Assembly: GCF_019429335.1 (NCBI RefSeq) | Contig: NZ_JAHYJB010000009.1 | Span: 1-64,000, forward strand | DNA: 64,000 bases | Source of the DNA: Sulfurimonas sp. | GTDB lineage: Bacteria; Campylobacterota; Campylobacteria; Campylobacterales; Sulfurimonadaceae | Direction of reading: 5' to 3' | Made by a program: the position numbers and the translations under genes | Part shown: in pieces, positions 7,417 through 48,896 of the stretch | How the letters are laid out: every line of letters begins with the position of its first letter | Numbering within the stretch: the stretch's first letter is position 1 | Notes under the pieces: model-generated | Told to the model about the DNA's origin: nothing | Database searches by the model: none | Seen by the model: only the letters and a program-made list of their open reading frames with translations

Positions 7417-7832
7417 AACAGCCGTGATTGTATTAAACACCTTAAACAAGCGGATAAATATATAAAGATGGTAGATGAAGGAATGGATAGTTCATATAAA
7501 AATCTTGAATTTCTTGCAAGATATACTGAATTCGCAAACATGCACATGACAAGGTATACTATTTGTATTAAAAGTAATGATAAATAGTCGTTGTTTTTAC
7601 TGATTCATTCTTTGAGCAAATTTGACATTACACCTCTACGGGTGAATCTCCACTTTTGTGATGCAGAATTCTCCCTCCTCAAAAAAAAGAAAGATTATAA
7701 GACACAGGTCAGCTTATTCTCAGACTGATATAATCTTACGGTAGTATAGTTAAAATAAGTCGTTACTATCCCTTGACAAAATAATCATTTATGCACTACA
7801 ATTGTATACACGAAATGCAAATGAGGTAGATT
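7417..7832. other. Gene-poor stretch with an orphan reading frame
   Basis: About 415 bases without a confident gene. A 57-codon open stretch (to the TAG at 7585-7587) reads CIKHLKQADKYIKMVDEG and LEFLARYTEFANMHM. It looks protein-like but has no ribosome site and no recognised family, and it follows the transposase stop in the same frame. It is probably a further relic. The rest is AT-rich, up to the promoter of the intact toxin-antitoxin pair. Confidence 0.45.
7773..7802 (+). promoter_or_regulatory. Promoter of the toxin-antitoxin operon
   Basis: TTGACA and TACAAT are separated by 18 bases, about 30 bases before the antitoxin ATG. The -10 box lies within the palindrome TACAATTGTA, a likely operator for autoregulation by the ribbon-helix-helix antitoxin. 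The operator role is inferred from its position and symmetry. Confidence 0.65.
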
Positions 7833-8063
7833 ATGAAACAAGCCATAAACATTAGACTTGAAAAAGATGTTGTTAAAACATTGGATGAATATGCACTAGA
7901 GCTAGACAAGACTAGAACAAGCTTAGTTGAAAAAGCCATTGAGTTATACTTTGATAAGTTAGATGAGATGATTGCCGACAAAAGAATAGACGATTTAAAA
8001 GCAGGAAAGACCACAGTTGTGCCTCTTGCAGAAGTATTTAAAAAAGCCGGCATTGATGTATAG
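7833..8063 (+). CDS. Ribbon-helix-helix (CopG-like) antitoxin
   Basis: This is a 76-residue protein. The N-terminal strand and helices (INIRLEKDVVKTLDEYALEL, then TSLVEKAIELYF) match the MetJ/Arc/CopG fold that binds DNA as a dimer. The C-terminal half is charged and should mask the toxin. The gene overlaps the toxin start by 8 bases, the usual antitoxin-first order, and has a TTGACA/TACAAT promoter with a palindrome. A GAGG ribosome site precedes the ATG. Confidence 0.85.
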   Translation: MKQAINIRLEKDVVKTLDEYALELDKTRTSLVEKAIELYFDKLDEMIADKRIDDLKAGKTTVVPLAEVFKKAGIDV

Positions 8064-39642: not shown

Positions 39643-39719
39643 GTCAGGGTAGCTCAGCTGGTTAGAGCACTGGTCTCATAAGCCGGGGGTCGGGGGTTCA
39701 AGTCCCCCCTCTGACACCA
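39643..39719 (+). tRNA. tRNA-Met (CAT), integration target
   Basis: The acceptor stem GTCAGGG pairs with CTCTGAC (one G-U). The anticodon loop CTCATAA gives CAT, the D-arm is AGCTCAGCTGGTTAGAGC, the T-arm GGGGGTTCAAGTCCCCC, and CCA is encoded. The normal first acceptor pair speaks against initiator tRNA; elongator Met is likely and Ile(CAT) is not excluded. Its last 12 bases are repeated at 48877-48888, marking it as the attachment site of the following element, which leaves the tRNA intact. Confidence 0.93.
39708..39719 (+). repeat. attL core (12 bp)
   Basis: CCTCTGACACCA, the 3' acceptor strand and CCA of tRNA-Met. It is identical to 48877-48888. Confidence 0.85.
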
Positions 39720-39766
39720 AGAGAAACTGTCTACAAACTCCGATTTCATTGGACTTAAACACAATC

Positions 39767-39790
39767 ATGACAACTTTAAAACAACTTAAA
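39767..39790 (+). repeat. 24-bp direct repeat, left copy (possible integrase arm site)
   Basis: It is identical to 48790-48813 and begins ATGACAACTTTAAAAC. It is itself two imperfect ACAACTT(T)AAA units. In the integrase frame it encodes MTTLKQLK. In the circle the two copies would lie on either side of the attP core, 48 bases to its right and about 63 to its left, as recombinase arm sites do. Confidence 0.6.
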
Positions 39791-41233
39791 CGAATAGAAC
39801 AACTTTTAGAAGATAACAGACTTCTAAATAACAAATATTTAACTTTTAAGAATAATGTTTATTACTTTGTTATAAAGATAAACGATTACACTTTTAAGAA
39901 ATCACTTAAAACAGATAATTTCACTTATTCTAATCTACTAAAATATAAAATCTTAGAAGTGATTAGAAAGATTAAAAATGATGATAATGAATTAGATGTA
40001 TTAAAAGACACTAAAAATTCTTATTACACTATTAATAATCTCGGAGGAAATGGTTTAATCTTAACACCTGAAAATGAAGAAGAAAGATTACTTTTAAGTG
40101 AGATAGAGAAGACTATTATTAAGAAGATTAAACTTATAAGTAAAGATAAGAAAGTAAGTGTAAGTCAAGAAGAAACAAGAGATATACAGACTTTAAAGAA
40201 GTCTTGTGATAAGTATATAGATTTCAAATCTCTTCTTGTAGATAATAGAGTTATGATGAAATATAGACAATCAATAGAGTATTTATTTATTTTTTTTGGA
40301 GAAAAAAAACTAATTAAAGATATTACAATTCAAGAGTGTAATGATTTTAGAACTTTTTTAATGAAAGTTCCAGTAAGATGGAAATCTAAGATAGATTTAA
40401 AAGATAAAAATTTAAAACTTATGATTGATAAAAAAATGAAAATTTTAGATAAATATGAAAAAGTTAATATTAAAACAGTAGATGAAATTATAGTAAAAAC
40501 AAAAAGTATTTTTGAATATTTTTTAGATAATACTTTAATATATAAAAATCCCTTTAGTAAAATGTCAAAATTAAACACTAAATTTACAAAAAAAAGAGAT
40601 TTTAGTGAATTAGAAAGTAGTTTAATTCTAAAATACATGAAAAATAAAAAACTAAATCAAGAATTCAACTTTTTTAAATTTGGTTTAATGAGTGGTTTAA
40701 GAAGAGGAGAAATTTTAAGTATTAGATTAAAAGATATTGATTTTAAAAATAAAACTATATATATCAATGGAACTAAAACAGAAAATTCTAAAAGATTGAT
40801 GTTTATTCACGAAGATTTAATATCTACTATTAAAGAACAAATTATAGATAAAAATAGAGAAGATTTACTTTTTTATAATGAAAAAGAATGGACTAAACTT
40901 ACAGAAAAATATAGAGAAGAAAAAGTAGGAGGAATAATAAACGAAATTATAAAAATCGTTGTTGGAGAAAATGTTAAAAAATTCTTAGATATTCATAGTT
41001 TAAGAAAAAGTTTTACTCAAATTATACATTTAAGTAATGAATTTACACATTTAGAAGTTCAAACTATTTTAGGACATTCTACTAAAAACGATGTTACAGA
41101 CACACATTATATCTTAGGTAAAAGAGATTATAAATCAATGTTAGAAAAAATAAATAATATTGATTTTACTAATTTTCTCGAAGTTCAAAAAATACAAGAT
41201 AAATTTGATGAAGAAGTATTAGAATTCTGTTAA
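39767..41233 (+). CDS. int: Tyrosine recombinase (integrase), 5' end displaced by integration
   Basis: It has an N-terminal arm-binding-like region (YLTFKNNVYYFVIKINDYTF) and a SAM-like core-binding domain. The catalytic domain holds R (GLRRGE), HSLR (H-x-x-R), LGH and the nucleophile Tyr in DTHYILG. All catalytic positions are present. No ribosome site precedes ATG 39767 or TTG 39749, yet the frame is open right through the att core into the tRNA. Joined across the 12-bp core to 48828-48888, the frame is continuous and gains a start with AAGGA upstream: 525 codons including the stop. So this is the body of a gene whose start lies at the other end of the element. It ends convergently with the translocase gene, overlapping by 4 bases. 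Confidence 0.9.
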   Translation: MTTLKQLKRIEQLLEDNRLLNNKYLTFKNNVYYFVIKINDYTFKKSLKTDNFTYSNLLKYKILEVIRKIKNDDNELDVLKDTKNSYYTINNLGGNGLILTPENEEERLLLSEIEKTIIKKIKLISKDKKVSVSQEETRDIQTLKKSCDKYIDFKSLLVDNRVMMKYRQSIEYLFIFFGEKKLIKDITIQECNDFRTFLMKVPVRWKSKIDLKDKNLKLMIDKKMKILDKYEKVNIKTVDEIIVKTKSIFEYFLDNTLIYKNPFSKMSKLNTKFTKKRDFSELESSLILKYMKNKKLNQEFNFFKFGLMSGLRRGEILSIRLKDIDFKNKTIYINGTKTENSKRLMFIHEDLISTIKEQIIDKNREDLLFYNEKEWTKLTEKYREEKVGGIINEIIKIVVGENVKKFLDIHSLRKSFTQIIHLSNEFTHLEVQTILGHSTKNDVTDTHYILGKRDYKSMLEKINNIDFTNFLEVQKIQDKFDEEVLEFC

Positions 41234-43380
41234 ATATACTTCTTTACTTCATTATGAAGTTCTTTTAATAATTCTAATATTATGTCTTCTTTTGTATCAC
41301 TTTTAAATAATCTTGTAATTTTATCAGTCTCTTTATAAAACTTTTTTCTTATTTTTTCATCTTTGATTTTAGAAATTAAATCTCTAAACATTTTAATTTT
41401 TTCTTTAATGTCTTTATCAAGTTCTTTATTTTCATTTTTTAACTCTTCTTCTATAATTTTAATTTCGTCTTCAATATCGACTACTTCTTCTTCGTCCATT
41501 TCTTCGATTTTTTCTAAAATTAGATTTGTAAGTTCTGTATTCGTTTCGTCAAACTTCATTTTATTATCTTCTATAAATTTTTTAATATCGTCTTTTTTAC
41601 TTTTAAATACTTTACCTTTTTCAAAGTTTTCTAATTCTTCTTTTATCTTATTTTGTAAATCTAATAATAATTGAAATTCTTTATCGTCTCTTACAACAAC
41701 TTCATTTATTATAACTTTTTCGTAAACTTCATTAATAAGATTATTTGTTCTACATTTATTGTATATTTCTTTAAAACTCTCTATTTGATTATTTACTTTT
41801 ACTTGTATATCGTTTATAACACCTTGTTTTACTAAATTACTTAACATTAAATTTTTATCTATGTATTTATGTAGTTCTTCATTTTTAAATAGTTCTATTA
41901 ACTCTTCATATCTATCTTTTACTTTCATATTATGAATGTATGATTGAGTAATTATCATTTTTTCTAATTGTGTTCGTAATTGAGTTACAACTTTAATTTT
42001 ATCTTCTTCAGTAAGAATATCTATAACATCTTTTTGAGAAGTAAATACACCTCTTAAAACTTTATATACGACACCTTTTTGATTAGATTCTGTTTCATCT
42101 CTTAACACTTTAACACCAATTGGAAAATACTCAGGATTACATTTCAATTCTTCAAGTTTTTCATTTGAAATAGACTTATTTATACTTGGTTTATCGTCAG
42201 TTTTTAGAATACATCTCGTTATACACATCGCCAAAGTCGAAGATGATACATGTTCAGTAGTTGATATCTGAGAATAGAAATTCATATACATATTCATACT
42301 TCTACCAACTGTCATTATTTTGTCAAGTTTATTTAAAGTATCATCATATTTATCTCTCATTACTTTATCTGTAAATTTAGTTAGTGATAATTGTCCAAAT
42401 TCATCTACAATACTTAAAATTAAAGGTTCATCACTGAATTCTAAACCATTTTCAACACATTTTTTATTTCTTTCCATCATAATATTATAAAATTCTGTTA
42501 TAAAATTCATAAATTCTTCAACATTAGTATTTACTTTAACTTTATTGTTAAACATACTATCATATTTTTTTAACTCCATACCTCCTTTTAAATCCGTCAA
42601 ATATAACTTTTCTATGTATTTAATACCAGTTTCATTTTCTAATTTCAAATGATATAAAATACTTATTAATTTTAGTCTTATATCTGTAGATTTCCCTGAA
42701 CCAGTGGTTCCTGTTGAATATATATGTGTTTGTTTAAAAATAGAAGTATAATAAGGAATTCCTTGTTTATCGAAACCTTCTAAAATTTGTCCTTTCTTCA
42801 AAAAATCAATTGAAAATTTATAATCTTTAAACGGACTTTTTAACCTAATTCCCATCATATTTTTTGAAATTACATAAGGTTCAAAATAGTCTTTTTCTGT
42901 ATTTATACTTAAAAATTGTTGAATATTTTGTATCTTTTTACTATCAGTGTAATTTTTACTTTCTATAAAACCAAAATTATTTTTATATATTATTTCACCT
43001 TTTTCTTTATCATAACTATGAAATTTATCATATATCTTTTCATTACTATTATTATTGTCATTTTGATAAAAACCTAATTTTTGAGGTAATTCTTTATATT
43101 TCTTAATATCTCCAATTGAAAAAATTGTATCACTACTTGAAAACTTTATAAAATATAATATTGTAATTGTTATAAATGTATAAAAAATTATATTTAATTC
43201 GTGATGTTGATTTTGTCTTATGTTAAAAACATAATGATATAAATTAGTGTTTATTCTATGATTTTGATAATATTCATATAATAAAAAATATATTGATACT
43301 AAGAAAATAGTAGTAATAAAACTTAAAAATACACTTGTAAATAATATATTATTAAAATCTTTTTGATTCTTCTTAGACAT
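41230..43380 (-). CDS. FtsK/HerA-type DNA translocase, membrane-anchored
   Basis: This 716-residue protein has two N-terminal membrane helices (about 13-36 and 61-80). The ATPase has Walker A STGTTGSGKST (about 222-232), the FtsK-like LTDLKGGMEL block, MMERN, and Walker B LILSIVDEFG (about 320-329). A long, highly charged coiled-coil tail (about 530-716) follows. FtsK-like pumps on small mobile elements act as coupling proteins or conjugative translocases (TraB, TcpA, ConQ types). It lacks the FtsK gamma domain. Start overlaps the preceding gene by 8 bases, suggesting joint function. Whether it moves DNA through a helper secretion channel or by itself is unknown. Confidence 0.85.
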   Translation of the reverse strand: MSKKNQKDFNNILFTSVFLSFITTIFLVSIYFLLYEYYQNHRINTNLYHYVFNIRQNQHHELNIIFYTFITITILYFIKFSSSDTIFSIGDIKKYKELPQKLGFYQNDNNNSNEKIYDKFHSYDKEKGEIIYKNNFGFIESKNYTDSKKIQNIQQFLSINTEKDYFEPYVISKNMMGIRLKSPFKDYKFSIDFLKKGQILEGFDKQGIPYYTSIFKQTHIYSTGTTGSGKSTDIRLKLISILYHLKLENETGIKYIEKLYLTDLKGGMELKKYDSMFNNKVKVNTNVEEFMNFITEFYNIMMERNKKCVENGLEFSDEPLILSIVDEFGQLSLTKFTDKVMRDKYDDTLNKLDKIMTVGRSMNMYMNFYSQISTTEHVSSSTLAMCITRCILKTDDKPSINKSISNEKLEELKCNPEYFPIGVKVLRDETESNQKGVVYKVLRGVFTSQKDVIDILTEEDKIKVVTQLRTQLEKMIITQSYIHNMKVKDRYEELIELFKNEELHKYIDKNLMLSNLVKQGVINDIQVKVNNQIESFKEIYNKCRTNNLINEVYEKVIINEVVVRDDKEFQLLLDLQNKIKEELENFEKGKVFKSKKDDIKKFIEDNKMKFDETNTELTNLILEKIEEMDEEEVVDIEDEIKIIEEELKNENKELDKDIKEKIKMFRDLISKIKDEKIRKKFYKETDKITRLFKSDTKEDIILELLKELHNEVKKYI

Positions 43381-43738
43381 AATATTTTCCTACATTATAA
43401 GTTTTTTCTAGAATAATATCTTGTTCTATTTTTATTAATTTCATTGTTTTAGATTTTATATCATTGAAGTTATAATCTAATGTTTGAAAGTCTTTTCTTG
43501 TTTTTTTCTCATTTTCAAAATCATAAAATTCAAAGACTTCAACACTTCTTGTGTTTGTATTTACTAATAATAAAACTTTATAGTTTCTATCTATTCTTGT
43601 TTTTTTTAAACCACCGAGTCCACTTTTGACATAAGATAACATACAATCAACATTTACTTTTCCTACGTAACCTTTATTAAATCCGTTTGGTTTAATTTCA
43701 CTATATCTTTTTTGAAATATTTCAACATGAAAATCCAT
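43373..43738 (-). CDS. Element protein of unknown function, coupled to the translocase
   Basis: This 121-residue, beta-rich protein (YVGKVNVDCMLSYVKSG, VLLLVNTNTRSVEVFEFYDF) has no signal peptide or membrane helix. Its end overlaps the translocase start by 8 bases. It has a strong AAGGAG ribosome site and its own promoter module at 43771-43798. It may be a DNA-binding or accessory factor for the translocase, which is an inference from coupling alone. Confidence 0.65.
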   Translation of the reverse strand: MDFHVEIFQKRYSEIKPNGFNKGYVGKVNVDCMLSYVKSGLGGLKKTRIDRNYKVLLLVNTNTRSVEVFEFYDFENEKKTRKDFQTLDYNFNDIKSKTMKLIKIEQDIILEKTYNVGKYYV

Positions 43739-43770
43739 TTTTTATTCTCCTTTTTTTGTTCTATTAAACT

Positions 43771-43798
43771 ATTATAAAAACTTTTTAGTTTTTTCCAA
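43771..43798 (-). promoter_or_regulatory. Element promoter module a
   Basis: On the minus strand TTGGAA (43798-43793) and TATAAT (43776-43771) are 16 bases apart, followed by AGTTTAATA. It matches the modules at 44022, 45077-45204 and 46584 and lies 33 bases before the 121-residue gene. It overlaps the end of the 46-residue gene. Confidence 0.65.
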
Positions 43799-43912
43799 AT
43801 TTTTCGTTAATTTCTTTTTTTTCGTTTTTAATAGTAATTTTCTTAATTTATTTATATCAATTTCTAAGAAATCTATTTCTACTTCATTTTTTATTTTATA
43901 GTCATTTTTCAT
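43772..43912 (-). CDS. 46-residue Lys-rich small protein
   Basis: Reads MKNDYKIKNEVEIDFLEIDI, then a strongly basic helix (NKLRKLLLKTKKKKLTKNLE). GAGGA lies 8 bases before the ATG, within the end of the 25-residue gene, and only one base separates the two. The acidic-then-basic make-up suggests a nucleic-acid-binding or partner-binding peptide. Too short for standard gene finders; no family known. Confidence 0.55.
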   Translation of the reverse strand: MKNDYKIKNEVEIDFLEIDINKLRKLLLKTKKKKLTKNLEKTKKFL

Positions 43913-43913
43913 T

Positions 43914-43991
43914 TTAAAGTCCTCTTATTTCGATTATTTTTACTATTTGACTTAATATTATAAGTCCTACTATTAAAATTATTTCTAACAT
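43914..43991 (-). CDS. 25-residue single-helix membrane peptide
   Basis: MLEIILIVGLIILSQIVKII then EIRGL and a stop, almost entirely a membrane helix. AAGGA lies 9 bases before the ATG, and the element promoter module at 44022-44049 stands directly upstream, so it is the first gene of that transcript. Such tiny membrane peptides occur as phage structural proteins, holin-like or toxin peptides, or translocase regulators. Which applies cannot be told. Confidence 0.55.
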   Translation of the reverse strand: MLEIILIVGLIILSQIVKIIEIRGL

Positions 43992-44021
43992 TTTTTAATC
44001 CTTTTTTATGTATATATAACT

Positions 44022-44103
44022 ATTATAATAAAAAAATAGTATTTTCCAAGAAATTTTCCAAAGAATTTTAAAATTTGTAAATTAGTACGATTTTTAGGAG
44101 TTT
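44022..44103 (-). promoter_or_regulatory. Duplicated 82-bp promoter/operator module b
   Basis: On the minus strand: a 12-base block (44103-44092), 7 variable bases, a 25-base block (44084-44060), 10 bases, TTGGAA (44049-44044), 16 bases, TATAAT (44027-44022), then AGTTATATA. Every element recurs at 46584-46665 with identical spacing (a constant offset of 2562) and both long blocks are identical in sequence. It drives the 25- and 46-residue genes. The 25-base block contains the palindrome AATTTTAAAATT, a possible operator. Confidence 0.75.
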
Positions 44104-44164
44104 ATTTAAAGTGTGTTTTTTAGTATTTTTTGTTATCTTCTAATATTTTTATATTATTATTGAA

Positions 44165-44263
44165 TTATTTATGTATTTCTAAATATCTATCACAAACATA
44201 AAAGTGAAAACCTTTTAAACCTTTTATAATTATTACTTTTTTACATTCAACACATTTAAACAT
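44165..44263 (-). CDS. 32-residue CxxC small protein
   Basis: MFKCVECKKVIIIKGLKGFH then FYVCDRYLEIHK. A CxxC pair plus a later Cys and two His suggest a small zinc-binding knuckle. AAGGAG lies 8 bases before the ATG and is one of the best ribosome sites in the element. It starts 15 bases after the 52-residue gene. No family known. Confidence 0.55.
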   Translation of the reverse strand: MFKCVECKKVIIIKGLKGFHFYVCDRYLEIHK

Positions 44264-44277
44264 TTTATTCTCCTTTT

Positions 44278-44436
44278 TTATATATTATTTTTATATTTTT
44301 CTCTCTTTTGTTTTCTTTCTTCTCTTTCTTCTATCTCTATCATTAAAATCATTTTTATATAATGTTTTATCATTTCGTTACATTCATTTATTTTGATTTC
44401 ATAATTTTTTATATCTCTAAATTTTAAATCATTCAT
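44278..44436 (-). CDS. 52-residue charged helical small protein
   Basis: Starts MNDLKFRDIKNYEIKINEC and continues as a long Glu/Lys/Arg-rich helix (IEIEERE, KQKREKY) to TAA. AAGGAT precedes the ATG. It lies 19 bases after the barrel-like gene in the same transcript. It is probably a coiled-coil; function unknown. Confidence 0.55.
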   Translation of the reverse strand: MNDLKFRDIKNYEIKINECNEMIKHYIKMILMIEIEEREERKQKREKYKNNI

Positions 44437-44455
44437 TTTATTATCCTTTCGTAAG

Positions 44456-44902
44456 TTAAAAACTATAACTTACTGTTAAGATAAAATCGTCTTCTCGTTT
44501 TTTAATATCTAACATAAGATTTCTATTATAAATAAATGACACTTTTGGAGTTATATAATTAACATAATCGTATAATAAATCCCATCCAACACGTCCAACT
44601 TCTACACCTAAACCACAATTATATTTCGATGTCAAAATATCGTTTTTATAAACAATTCCATGTAGAGAAATAGCCCTATCTTCGTCATTTGTCAAAATTT
44701 CGAAGTTCATTCCAACTAAAAAATTATCTTTTATTCCATCTAAACCTACATTGACAATAGTTCCTACCATGTCGATTTTTTCACCATTTTCTTCAATTTC
44801 ATTAATTTTTACAAAACTAACTCCAACTTTTGGACTTATTTCAATTTCATTTCCAAATAAACTTACACTTATAAACACTATTCCTAATAATATTTTTTTC
44901 AC
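44456..44902 (-). CDS. Exported outer-membrane-barrel-like protein of the element
   Basis: Signal peptide MKKILLGIVFISVSLFGNE is followed by alternating amphipathic strands (VGVSFVKIN, FLVGMNFEIL, CGLGVEVGRVGWDLLYDY) and a terminal VSYSF ending in Phe. This matches an 8-strand outer-membrane barrel (148 residues). An outer-membrane protein on a mobile element may be a receptor-blocking, immunity or surface-exclusion factor; this is inference. It follows the preceding exported-protein gene by 1 base. Confidence 0.65.
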   Translation of the reverse strand: MKKILLGIVFISVSLFGNEIEISPKVGVSFVKINEIEENGEKIDMVGTIVNVGLDGIKDNFLVGMNFEILTNDEDRAISLHGIVYKNDILTSKYNCGLGVEVGRVGWDLLYDYVNYITPKVSFIYNRNLMLDIKKREDDFILTVSYSF

Positions 44903-44903
44903 T

Positions 44904-45113
44904 TTATTCTCCTTTATTTTTTAAATAATCTTGAAGAATAATAAAACATTTTTCTTCTTCTTCTTTGTTAGATACATAATTTTCGTTATAATCAAAATCT
45001 TGTGACAATTTTAAACATTTATCAATTTCTTCTTTATTTTGTTCGATTTTCCAATCTCCGAATAAACTACTATACCCCATCAACATTACTAATATTAAAC
45101 TTGTTTTTTTCAT
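44904..45113 (-). CDS. Small exported protein with two cysteines
   Basis: A 69-residue product with signal peptide MKKTSLILVMLMGYSSLFGD. The mature part is charged, with two Cys (DKCLKLSQDF and EEKCFIIL) that could form one disulfide, giving a small helical hairpin. It is paired with the barrel-like gene 1 base downstream and driven by promoter module c. Unknown family. Confidence 0.6.
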   Translation of the reverse strand: MKKTSLILVMLMGYSSLFGDWKIEQNKEEIDKCLKLSQDFDYNENYVSNKEEEEKCFIILQDYLKNKGE

Positions 45114-45204
45114 TTTTTTTTCCTTTTTTGTATTATTGTTTATAAAGAGATTTAAAATTTTTCTCTCTATATAACTATTGTAATAAATAAATATTTTTTT
45201 CCAA
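45077..45204 (-). promoter_or_regulatory. Element promoter module c with leader hairpin
   Basis: TTGGAA (45204-45199) and TACAAT (45082 is a coding position; the box itself is 45182-45177) are 16 bases apart, followed by AGTTATATA. The leader then holds GAGA/TCTC arms followed by TTTAT, resembling the leader of module e (AAAGAG/CTCTTTAT). A weaker copy with 18-base spacing stands further upstream (45275-45270 and 45251-45246), inside the end of the 113-residue gene. Confidence 0.6.
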
Positions 45205-45243
45205 ATTTTTTAATTAAAAATTGTGAAATTCTTTTTTATATAA

Positions 45244-45585
45244 CTATTGTAATAAGAGATAATTGAATATTCCAAGTTCTAACTCTTTGTCTATTCCAAA
45301 TAAAATAAAAAAAATAGTAGAAATTATTGTTAGTATTAAATTCAATATTTGATTGTTTTTATTTTCCATATTTAACCATTTTCCTAATACCACATTTAAC
45401 ATTTTGTAAACCATTGTTAAAAAAACAGAAATTAATAAAAAGTGTATAATTCGAAATGGAGTTTGTAAAATTTTATTTTCAGTCCACTCAACCATTATTT
45501 CTCTTGTTTTTTCATCAAAATTCTCTATTAAACCTTTTCCTTTAGACATATTGTCTATATTGTTCTGAATACCCATTTTAAACAT
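45244..45585 (-). CDS. Element membrane protein, 2-3 helices
   Basis: This 113-residue protein has a soluble start (NNIDNMSKGKGLIENFDEK) and hydrophobic segments at about 41-66 (FRIIHFLLISVFLTMVYKM), 78-96 and perhaps the end. Its start overlaps the previous gene by 8 bases. No homology recognised. With the exported proteins downstream it forms an envelope-directed group. Confidence 0.6.
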   Translation of the reverse strand: MFKMGIQNNIDNMSKGKGLIENFDEKTREIMVEWTENKILQTPFRIIHFLLISVFLTMVYKMLNVVLGKWLNMENKNNQILNLILTIISTIFFILFGIDKELELGIFNYLLLQ

Positions 45586-45799
45586 CCTTGTAGTAAAATC
45601 TATTTACTGTTTTTAATTTTTCTTTTTTATCTATAATTTTTTCTATTTCTAATATTGTTTCTTCTATATATGTACTATAAATATCAGAGAGATTTAAACT
45701 CATATCTTTAATTTTTTTTGATACTCTGTCGTAATCTTCTCTATTTACTAAAATCTTTATCTCTTTATATTTTTCTTTATCAAATAATCTTTTTCTCAT
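45578..45799 (-). CDS. Small charged protein, possible RHH regulator
   Basis: This 73-residue protein has a strand-like EIKILVNREDYDRVSKKI then helices (LNLSDIYSTYIEETILEIE). The pattern of one strand and two helices resembles ribbon-helix-helix regulators or relaxosome accessory proteins, though no signature is strong enough to be sure. It could bind the repeated promoter modules. It overlaps the membrane-protein gene by 8 bases. Confidence 0.5.
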   Translation of the reverse strand: MRKRLFDKEKYKEIKILVNREDYDRVSKKIKDMSLNLSDIYSTYIEETILEIEKIIDKKEKLKTVNRFYYKDV

Positions 45800-45831
45800 T
45801 TTTTACCCTTTTTAAACTAATTCATTAAGAA

Positions 45832-46521
45832 TTAGTTTGTTTTTTGTGGTTCTTGAACTCTTGAATTTTCCCCTAAAATTTTTGGTAAAATATCAGTATG
45901 ATATTTTGTATAATTCCCTGTTCCAGTTGAGTAAATATCATTTACTAAAACTTTTTTACCTTTAAGATTTTCTAAACCACTTTTTAATTTCATATCAACA
46001 AAATAAACTCTTTTTGTTACTTTTCCGTCAACTCTTTGTTTAGTAGTAAAAGTTAATTGTTTAACTTTATTAGGTTTTTTATCTACCCATTCAGTAACTT
46101 CGACTACTTCAATATTTGTAATAGGTAAAGGTTCTTTACTATCAAAGTAAATTTCAAATAATCCGTCTTCTGTTGAATCTTTGTCGTATTTAGACACTTC
46201 TTTTAAGTTCTCTTTATTAAGAATTCCAAAATAAGAATCTTGTCCTTTTAGTTGAACTTTTTTATCATTATCCCAACCATTTTGAACCATTACATTGTCA
46301 ATATAATAAACTTTATCTAACATAGTTTCTAATTGTTCTTTTTTAATTCCAATTTCATTGTGTAATGTAATTTGATACCTTTTATCTTTTTTCCAAGTTT
46401 GTAAAGTAACATTCCCTAATTCACTTATACTATAACCACCAACAGAGATTTTTACTTTTTTGTAAAACATACTATCTTGTGATAATACGATTTCTTTAAT
46501 ACTTTTTTTAACTTCCGACAT
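45832..46521 (-). CDS. Element protein following rep, unknown (single-strand binding role possible)
   Basis: This soluble, beta-rich 229-residue protein (KKVKISVGGYSISELGNVTL; VKQLTFTTKQRVDGKVTKRV) has no signal peptide. Its place directly after the rolling-circle initiator is where single-strand DNA-binding or replication accessory proteins sit in rolling-circle elements, but I see no OB-fold signature. The C-terminus is polar (NSRVQEPQKTN). It is driven by promoter module e. Confidence 0.5.
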   Translation of the reverse strand: MSEVKKSIKEIVLSQDSMFYKKVKISVGGYSISELGNVTLQTWKKDKRYQITLHNEIGIKKEQLETMLDKVYYIDNVMVQNGWDNDKKVQLKGQDSYFGILNKENLKEVSKYDKDSTEDGLFEIYFDSKEPLPITNIEVVEVTEWVDKKPNKVKQLTFTTKQRVDGKVTKRVYFVDMKLKSGLENLKGKKVLVNDIYSTGTGNYTKYHTDILPKILGENSRVQEPQKTN

Positions 46522-46583
46522 TTTTTTATCCTTTTATATAATTATTTTTGATAAAGAGTTGTCTTTTTTCTCTTTACATAACT

Positions 46584-46665
46584 ATTATAAGAAAAAAATG
46601 TTTTTTTCCAAGAAAATTGTAAAAGAATTTTAAAATTTGTAAATTACCCCATATTTTAGGAGTTT
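46584..46665 (-). promoter_or_regulatory. Duplicated 82-bp promoter/operator module e
   Basis: This is the second copy of the block at 44022-44103: 12-base block, 7 variable bases, 25-base block (46646-46622), 10 bases, TTGGAA (46611-46606), 16 bases, TATAAT (46589-46584), AGTTATGTA. It begins at the very stop codon of rep and drives the 229-residue gene. The leader carries the hairpin TAAAGAG/CTCTTTA. Confidence 0.75.
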
Positions 46666-48263
46666 TAAGTTTTGATATTTTCTAAATTATTTTGATTTAT
46701 TTTCATTTCATACCAATTTTTATTATAAATTTCTTCTTTTTTATTGTTAAAAACTGATAATTTATTGATTTTATAAGTTAAAGTTAAATCATTTTCATTA
46801 TTAAATTCTTCTAAGTCGTATATTTTAAATTGTAATTCGTATATTTCTTTGTTTTTATTAAATATTCGATTTATTTCTAATTCGTCTATTAAGTCTTTGT
46901 GTAACTTGTTTAAAGTTAATTCTTTATCTATTTTAAATTTATTTCTTCTTTCTATATCTTTTTTAAACATATTTTTATATTTGTCTTTATCTATGTATTT
47001 GTAAAACTTTCTATTATCAATAATTTCTTTTTCTTTTCTAACTACTTCTTTTTCTATGTAAACTTGAAACATACATTTAGTTTTAATTTCTTCATTAAAT
47101 GTTTTTATTTTAATTTTATCTTCGTCTTTAATATGTGTCTCTTTATATGTTACTTTTTCAATTTCATAGAGTAAACAAGTGTTATTATCTTTACTTCGTT
47201 TTAGTAATATTTTTTTATCTTCTTCACTCATTGAATGATAGATTTTTTTATAATTTCCTATACCTATTTTAGAATTAGAAGATTTATGTATTCTTGAATG
47301 TTTCCCTAGAACAGTTCTCCAACCGTTATACATTTCGATATAATTTTTTCTGTCTTGTTCTTCTACTATATCTTCTTTATCTTGTTCTATTTCTACACCA
47401 TTAACAACGATATTTTTTTGATTTACAAATAAAGTTTTTGTTATATATTTCATTATATAATTTACTCCAAAATCGATTTTTTTGAAGTCTTGTTTTATAT
47501 CATTACTTTTTTCATTCATTTCATATTTTTTTAGAATATTTCTATATTCTTCATGTATAAAATCATTTAATTTCTTATCGTGATATAATAAAATATGTAA
47601 ATGATTAGAGAATTGTTTTGTAAATTCACTCACTACATCATATTTCATATTTTCCATTTTTTCTTTATGTTCTTCATTTAATTTTATAGATAAATATAAA
47701 TTTCTCCACACATCAGATAAAAATTTATAACCCTCTTCTATACTCTCTTCTATACTATTAAAACCAAATTTTTTATTTAATTTCCAATTTTCAAATTTTA
47801 ATTTTTTAGATACATATTTTTTTCTTTTTTTATCATAAACTTTTTCAGTTGTTATGTATTTGTGAAATCTCGAAGGTAATGTTAAAGTTATAAAACTTAC
47901 ATTTAAACCCAAATCTTTTGATACTGATTTATTGTATAAAAGTTTTTGTAAAGATAATTGTCCTTGTTTAATATACCATTTTTCTAAATCAAAATTCATT
48001 TTATAATATTCTGTTTTTTTTGAATTTTTTATATATTTATGTTTAAAGAAATCATTTTGTTTTTTTTCTTTTTCTTTAACAATCTCTATAAATCGTTCTT
48101 GTATCTCATAATGTTCGTTTAAATGATTTATTTTTATAGTTTTAGATTTATTTTTTTCTTCTTCTTCTAATTGTTTTTTATAAATATCTTCAAACATTTT
48201 ATTATTATAATCTTTAGACAATTGTTTTATATCTGTATTAAAATTTTCAAATAACTCAAACAT
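46665..48263 (-). CDS. rep: HUH-endonuclease replication initiator (phage GPA-like)
   Basis: This 532-residue protein has the three motifs of rolling-circle initiators in order. Motif 1 is VSFITLTLP (about 122-130). Motif 2 is the HUH metal site NHLHILLYHD (His221, His223). Motif 3 is NYIMKYITKT with two tyrosines four apart (about 269 and 273), the arrangement of the phiX174 gpA/P2 A group. The C-terminal half is a long charged tail without helicase motifs, so a host helicase is needed. It nicks one strand and starts rolling-circle copying of the excised circle; it could also act as a relaxase for transfer. A consensus promoter lies just upstream. Confidence 0.82.
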   Translation of the reverse strand: MFELFENFNTDIKQLSKDYNNKMFEDIYKKQLEEEEKNKSKTIKINHLNEHYEIQERFIEIVKEKEKKQNDFFKHKYIKNSKKTEYYKMNFDLEKWYIKQGQLSLQKLLYNKSVSKDLGLNVSFITLTLPSRFHKYITTEKVYDKKRKKYVSKKLKFENWKLNKKFGFNSIEESIEEGYKFLSDVWRNLYLSIKLNEEHKEKMENMKYDVVSEFTKQFSNHLHILLYHDKKLNDFIHEEYRNILKKYEMNEKSNDIKQDFKKIDFGVNYIMKYITKTLFVNQKNIVVNGVEIEQDKEDIVEEQDRKNYIEMYNGWRTVLGKHSRIHKSSNSKIGIGNYKKIYHSMSEEDKKILLKRSKDNNTCLLYEIEKVTYKETHIKDEDKIKIKTFNEEIKTKCMFQVYIEKEVVRKEKEIIDNRKFYKYIDKDKYKNMFKKDIERRNKFKIDKELTLNKLHKDLIDELEINRIFNKNKEIYELQFKIYDLEEFNNENDLTLTYKINKLSVFNNKKEEIYNKNWYEMKINQNNLENIKT

Positions 48264-48292
48264 TTTTAAACCTTTATTTTAATCTTTTATAG

Positions 48293-48320
48293 ATTTTAAT
48301 AAATTTCTTTTTCTTGTCAA
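48293..48320 (-). promoter_or_regulatory. rep promoter
   Basis: On the minus strand TTGACA (48320-48315) and TAAAAT (48298-48293) are 16 bases apart, 30 bases before the rep ATG. Its -35 is consensus, unlike the TTGGAA of the other element promoters, so rep is likely under separate control. Confidence 0.65.
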
Positions 48321-48388
48321 GTTTTTTTTATTTTAATAAATTGTAATTTTTTAATAATTTCCTACACTTTGTATAAAGTATCTTCAAG

Positions 48389-48410
48389 AGAAAACACTAT
48401 CGTGTTTTCT
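48389..48410. repeat. 9-bp hairpin
   Basis: AGAAAACAC and GTGTTTTCT are perfect arms around TATC. It shares the GAAAACAC motif with the larger hairpin 35 bases away. Candidate origin structure or rep leader element. Confidence 0.55.
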
Positions 48411-48424
48411 TTATTTCTTTTAGT

Positions 48425-48468
48425 TCTTGAAAACACCTCTATCACTTCGTTTCGAGGAGTTTTCAAGA
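48425..48468. repeat. 15-bp inverted repeat (candidate origin stem-loop)
   Basis: TCTTGAAAACACCTC pairs with GAGGAGTTTTCAAGA with a single mismatch around a 14-base loop. It is the strongest fold in the element, located upstream of rep, as expected of a rolling-circle origin. Confidence 0.6.
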
Positions 48469-48686
48469 CAAGAGGATAAACCTACTAAAAGAAATTTAAA
48501 TCAAAATTAAAAATTGATAATGGTTATCATAAAATAAAAAAATAGGTAAAAATTTAGGAAATTGTTTTTTCATGAATAGATTTATAAGTTTCATTTGATT
48601 TATAACTCAAAATCAACACATAATGTTTTGTACAAGAATAGTTTTTATAATAAAAGTTAATGTTTTTTAAGAATGATGGTTTTTTT

Positions 48687-48707
48687 TCAATTCGTTTCAC
48701 GAATTGA
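48687..48707. repeat. 8-bp hairpin near the int promoter
   Basis: TCAATTCG and CGAATTGA are perfect arms around TTTCA, 60 bases before the probable int -10 box. It might be an operator or a terminator-like fold. Confidence 0.45.
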
Positions 48708-48768
48708 TTATTTTCTTTATTCTTATCCACTTATGAGAGGTTTTAAGACTTAATGAAGTAAAAAAAAG

Positions 48769-48774
48769 TATAAT
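48769..48774 (+). promoter_or_regulatory. -10 box for the circular-form integrase transcript
   Basis: A perfect TATAAT lies after an A-run. A nine-codon open frame (MMTTLKQLK, ATG 48787 to TAA 48816) follows, then AAGGA and the ATG at 48828. In the integrated state this transcript runs out of the element into tRNA-Asn. In the circle it would run into int. Confidence 0.55.
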
Positions 48775-48789
48775 TACACTTCTTAAATG

Positions 48790-48813
48790 ATGACAACTTT
48801 AAAACAACTTAAA
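48790..48813 (+). repeat. 24-bp direct repeat, right copy
   Basis: Identical to 39767-39790. Here the same codons MTTLKQLK end in a stop codon, whose bases form part of the ribosome site for the next ATG. Confidence 0.65.
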
Positions 48814-48827
48814 TAAGGATTTTTAAA

Positions 48828-48896
48828 ATGACTACTTTAACCGTATTAACGGGGTTTGAGAGTTTTTTAAATAGTTCCTCTGACACCATTTTTTAA
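48828..48896 (+). CDS. Detached 5' end of the integrase gene
   Basis: ATG 48828 with AAGGA 8-9 bases upstream opens a 22-codon frame (MTTLTVLTGFESFLNSSSDT, then IF and TAA). Its SSDT codons are the attR core, and the stop lies just outside the element in host sequence. Replacing the host side by the left end of the element gives SSDTKRNCLQTPISLDLNT and runs on in frame into the integrase body. As it stands it would make a 22-residue peptide at most. Confidence 0.7.
   Translation: MTTLTVLTGFESFLNSSSDTIF
48877..48888 (+). repeat. attR core (12 bp)
   Basis: CCTCTGACACCA, identical to the tRNA-Met 3' end at 39708-39719. It is followed by a T-run and tRNA-Asn, the original downstream sequence of tRNA-Met. 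Confidence 0.85.

Follow-up and report, generated by a model that had tools for sequence, protein, structure and literature searches.

A candidate sigma70-type promoter cassette present in several copies within a small integrated element of Sulfurimonas

Does a duplicated upstream region in a mobile element mark the site of a shared regulator, or a promoter that the element has multiplied? This question is raised by two similar blocks in the window (the 64,000-nucleotide stretch of Sulfurimonas sp. DNA analysed here), which a preliminary description had presented as an 82-bp promoter/operator unit. The duplication is exactly as described there: positions 44022-44103 and 46584-46665 match at 68/82 positions, without indels and at a constant offset of 2562. 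Read on the minus strand, the shared parts are a 12-base block (AAACTCCTAAAA), 7 nucleotides, a 25-base run (TAATTTACAAATTTTAAAATTCTTT), 10 nucleotides, TTGGAA, 16 nucleotides, TATAAT and AGTTAT. The gapless similarity exceeds 82 bp and extends over 44001-44103 and 46563-46665 (85/103 matches), which we call blocks A and E. The best pair of 82-mer windows in the whole element matches at 70/82 positions, versus 51.2 +/- 0.65 (maximum 52) in 15 dinucleotide shuffles. Mismatches are clustered, mainly in the spacers: the 82-mer contains 8 match runs (P = 0.0014 for so few runs), the longest of 25 nucleotides (P = 0.04), with the block ends held as matches in these statistics. Because of this clustering, the shared parts of the two blocks are probably under constraint.

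Both blocks reside in an integrated element of 9.2 kb (39720-48888) with a GC content of 21%, versus 37% for the host. The insertion site is the 3' end of a tRNA-Met gene (39643-39719), and a 12-bp direct repeat is found at the left end (39708-39719, the tRNA-Met 3' end) and at the right end (CCTCTGACACCA, 48877-48888). A tyrosine integrase (39749-41233; Pfam PF00589) is on the plus strand, and the minus strand carries all other recognised element genes, which run in the order Rep, o229, o73, o113, o69, o148, o52, a 32-aa ORF, a 25-aa transmembrane (TM) peptide, o46, o121 and an FtsK-type ATPase. The HUH/G2P-like Rep (46665-48263) matches Pfam PF23343 below the cut-off (E 7.5e-5); a Rep homolog in a Sulfuricurvum contig (L065) passes this cut-off, and alignment of the window Rep with its homolog also supports the assignment. 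The ATPase (41230-43380) has an FtsK_SpoIIIE match (Pfam PF01580) and two N-terminal TM segments by hydropathy, and a pI-specific profile match is absent. PHROGs profiles gave no match for Rep and no convincing match for the ATPase. Inovirus-like elements with an "atypical" morphogenesis ATPase carrying an N-terminal TM segment have been described (PMC6813254). The window element resembles them in its N-terminal-TM FtsK-type ATPase, G2P-like Rep and integrase, as well as in its att repeat at a tRNA gene, small genes and 9-kb size, but differs from them in that no coat protein was identified. When short structural-type proteins (30-90 aa, one TM segment) were sought, the 25-aa TM peptide (43914-43991) was the sole candidate; o69 has the look of a secreted protein and lacks a second TM segment in its hydropathy profile. 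Putative homologs of o229 (45832-46521, minus strand), the gene that opens the block E operon, directly follow Rep in L065 and in another related locus (L101). Profile comparison did not support a kinship of o229 with the proteins of 84-95 aa encoded after Rep in related elements, and the structure model of o229 is unusable (pLDDT 35). The start of the integrase gene is duplicated at the right end of the element, as a 24-bp direct repeat (ATGACAACTTTAAAACAACTTAAA; 39767-39790 and 48790-48813).

The arrangement of the block gives good support to its reading as a promoter region: putative -35 and -10 hexamers are 16 nucleotides apart, and genes bearing ribosome-binding sites (RBSs) lie just downstream. 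Block A is a predicted promoter for the o25/o46 genes, with an RBS and the start of the 25-aa ORF (43991) just downstream, and could serve o121 and the FtsK gene by read-through. Block E lies between the rep stop codon and o229. These are the two longest copies but not the only ones: in total, five sites of the form TTGGAA-N16(18)-TAYAATAGTT occur, all on the minus strand of the element. TTGGAA-N16-TATAAT is found at 43771, 44022 (block A) and 46584 (block E), TTGGAA-N16-TACAAT at 45177 and TTGGAA-N18-TACAAT at 45246, each followed by AGTT. Promoter A1 (43771-43798) overlaps the end of o46 and is a candidate promoter for o121 and FtsK; promoter C (45177-45204) would serve o69 and o148, and promoter D (45246-45275) is in tandem with it, within the 3' end of o113. 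Each core points toward nearby RBS-bearing genes. Across the copies the hexamers are conserved, and spacer identity falls to 8-13/16. With 16-18 nucleotide spacing, A, E and A1 match the sigma70 consensus at 10/12 positions, and C and D at 9/12.

Such sites are rare elsewhere. The pattern TTGGAA-N15-18-TAYAATAGTT is absent from the plus strand of the element, and in 300 shuffles no strict match was found and a loose form occurred 0.05 times on average. A single loose match occurs in 455 kb of host DNA, in a comparison not matched for base composition, and the full pattern appears outside the element once, inside a long ORF, among 135 genomes of the genus. Generic sigma70 matches, by comparison, are no commoner in this AT-rich element than in shuffles (93 versus 82 +/- 11). 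A sigma54 interpretation of TTGGAA was rejected by eye, there being no GC at -12. This promoter class precedes every minus-strand gene group except rep, which has a promoter of a different class, TTGACA-16-TAAAAT (48293-48320, minus strand), the best sigma70 match in the element.

We therefore favour, with a probability of about 0.72, the explanation that the element has multiplied a sigma70-type promoter cassette to serve every minus-strand group except rep, blocks A and E being its two longest copies. Direct support comes from the position and direction of the sites, their number, the concentration of mismatches in spacers, and the sharing of the core with a second element. Host RNA polymerase would start about 7 nucleotides after TAYAAT. 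Because the minus strand of the element showed no terminator-like site, overlapping transcripts in one direction are likely, and the common core could keep the operons expressed together. Coordinated expression of two operons, as originally proposed, is thus plausible, but at least four gene groups have this class of promoter upstream. At A and E the promoter might be tuned further by an AT-rich box of 25 bp, which is conserved between them and spans roughly -46 to -70; it could act as an UP-like activating element or, slightly more likely in our view, as the operator of a putative protein. Promoter duplication inside mobile elements is of a known kind, and the copies seen here appear real and functional-looking; the arrangement represents ordinary gene-control anatomy, with the twist of a shared promoter, and not a new kind of system. 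It provides a concrete map of promoters for small integrative elements of a poorly described class in Campylobacterota.

The cores can be compared with sigma70 promoters of Campylobacter jejuni, in which dRNA-seq revealed no clear -35 box, a periodic A/T pattern and an extended TGxTATAAT (PMC3656092). Like these housekeeping promoters of the phylum, the element promoters have a TATAAT -10 box, A/T-rich upstream DNA and short leaders with an AAGGA RBS. Unlike them, they have a strict TTGGAA -35 box at 16 nucleotides and no TG before the -10 box. The window cores are therefore unlike the usual promoters of the phylum and, since the host also shows no -35 preference at 74 -10-like sites, their strict use of a -35 box marks them as element promoters.

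When the block was sought in related elements, as the preliminary description had suggested, the core was recovered but the 25-bp box was not. An element (L123) in another genome of the same genus (G009) encodes an integrase 58% identical to that of the window, and has no other recognisable protein in common with the window element. It carries a 75-nucleotide promoter block three times (second copy 97%, third 68%) with the core CTTATAATAGTTATATAA as in the window, and these copies precede a Rep3 gene, a small-gene operon and a relaxase-like operon. The two elements are alike in integrase and in placing the same core before operons, whereas L123 differs in its Rep3 replication protein, its relaxase-like gene, the lack of the box and a TTGACA -35 box in 2/3 promoter copies. 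The latter feature indicates that TTGGAA occupies a normal -35 position in the window. In a third locus (L121/L149), from another genus, TTGGAC-16-TATAATAGTTATATA precedes a similar small-protein/relaxase-like operon. The core was absent from an element (L148) whose integrase is 47% identical, and no core promoter was found in ten related loci scanned. It is present in 26 stretches of unrelated phage contigs, mostly phage promoters with TTGAC and an extended -10; a rough estimate judged the viral-contig matches to fit chance, and they indicate that the core can arise as an ordinary strong promoter. On the comparisons made here, the core is a predicted sigma70-type promoter cassette found with related integrases. 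Campylobacterota contain relatives of Rep and FtsK with about 25-35% identity, several of which are located at tRNA or tmRNA genes, and no close relative of either was found in genome, viral, phage and plasmid collections. Here an integrase and a promoter core are common to two elements whose replication and transfer genes are unrelated, which makes the idea that promoters are copied and shared in mobile DNA directly testable. The right end of the window element also resembles the end of the L123 element, and L123 itself contains a chemoreceptor gene (L123:10117-11208; MCPsignal and CZB domains).

The 25-bp box appears peculiar to the window element, where it has two exact copies on the minus strand (44060-44084, whose end is 10 nucleotides upstream of the -35 box, and 46622-46646) and a weaker inverted copy on the plus strand (45210-45234; 20/25), just upstream of promoter C. 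The latter is the only site in the element scoring between 18 and 25 box matches; on the score distribution it lacks significance by itself, but its location is suggestive. Promoters D and A1 do not have the box, and the box together with its -35 was found in no viral contig. The box may act either as an operator or as an UP-like element. An element-encoded DNA-binding protein that recognises it, possibly along with the 12-bp CTCCTAAAA also present in both blocks, might co-regulate the o229 and FtsK operons. This proposal overlaps our preferred explanation and makes a stronger claim on the box; we consider it a serious candidate at somewhat less than even odds. The box is identical in A and E (25/25) though the adjacent spacers have diverged, it contains the palindrome AATTTTAAAATT, and there is the inverted copy at promoter C. 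In addition, Sulfuricurvum L065 repeats a block of ~29 bp (L065:247-275 and 1935-1963; 79%) upstream of rep and the o229 homolog, although its sequence is different. The restriction of the box to this element, with no occurrence in L123 or, with its -35, in viral contigs, argues against such a protein, as does the lack of a recognisable gene for it. The charged 73-residue protein o73 (45578-45799, minus strand), which had been put forward as the regulator, gains no support: it has no match to ribbon-helix-helix (RHH) or other DNA-binding families and no meaningful PDB match, and its single-sequence structure model is one long helix. An RHH fold was considered for o73, and only its L051 counterpart gave a weak RHH match (E 0.02), below the cut-off. 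Profile searches yielded no candidate regulator in the element with a DNA-binding family match. The exact spacing, from which a regulator touching all parts had been deduced, is weak evidence because a copied segment keeps its spacing by descent; the clustering of mismatches does point to constraint, and a regulator is possible.

Descent only is the essence of another explanation, in which the 103-bp similarity reflects a recent segmental duplication or gene conversion and no shared regulator exists. The lack of indels over 103 bp is expected under this model, and the L123 copies are clearly recent (97% over 75 nucleotides), but the concentration of mismatches in spacers and the preservation of the core in more diverged copies make it rather unlikely. 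Somewhat more doubtful is the idea that the box is an UP-like element touched by the alpha subunit of RNA polymerase. Almost A/T-only tracts just upstream of the -35 box and the unstructured DNA are consistent with this role. Classical UP elements are centred nearer the -35 box, and base-by-base conservation over 25 bp also fits this role poorly. We regard as improbable a promoter code common to the integrase lineage, in which the core, with a palindromic -10/discriminator (TATAA-TAG-TTATA), stands before almost every operon; if it existed, one common factor might read or repress the core and elements with unrelated backbones would be switched together. It is very unlikely that the blocks are replication or transfer origins: block E abuts rep and the direct repeats flank 2.5 kb, but neither block surpasses shuffled sequence in folding (z about 0) or has stable hairpins of the kind sought at an origin, and nested hairpins elsewhere, upstream of rep (48360-48520; DNA fold z -7.7), are a likely replication origin. 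Least credible is an unrecognised coding sequence, the reading named at the outset as a refutation, since the one minus frame open across both blocks or most of them (about 30 codons) has no ATG, GTG or TTG in block A, where stops interrupt every frame, inside the block or at its edge, and 9/29 residues differ with zero synonymous codon changes.

With transcription taken to start 7 nucleotides after the -10 box, the computed leaders of the o229 operon (promoter E, 46520-46577) and the o69 operon (promoter C, 45111-45170) begin with a hairpin of 8-9 bp. Counterpart promoters in L101, L065 and a further locus (L056), which were chosen by eye, are also followed by a hairpin at the 5' end (P 0.0025-0.0125 each). 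These predicted hairpins may protect the messages or regulate translation. The space separating Rep from the o229 homolog in L101 (L101:1060-1233) holds a perfect TTGACA-17-TATAAT promoter, and upstream of this promoter lie the palindrome TGTTTCAAATTGAAACA and TTAAAG repeats spaced 11 bp apart. L056 has two similar TTGACTT promoters (L056:7112-7167 and 7790-7845), before a small G5P-like gene and an FtsK gene. Finally, L055 carries an element-linked gene pair (L055:3821-5769) that resembles a nucleotidyltransferase and a patatin-like phospholipase, and by eye is possibly a CBASS system.
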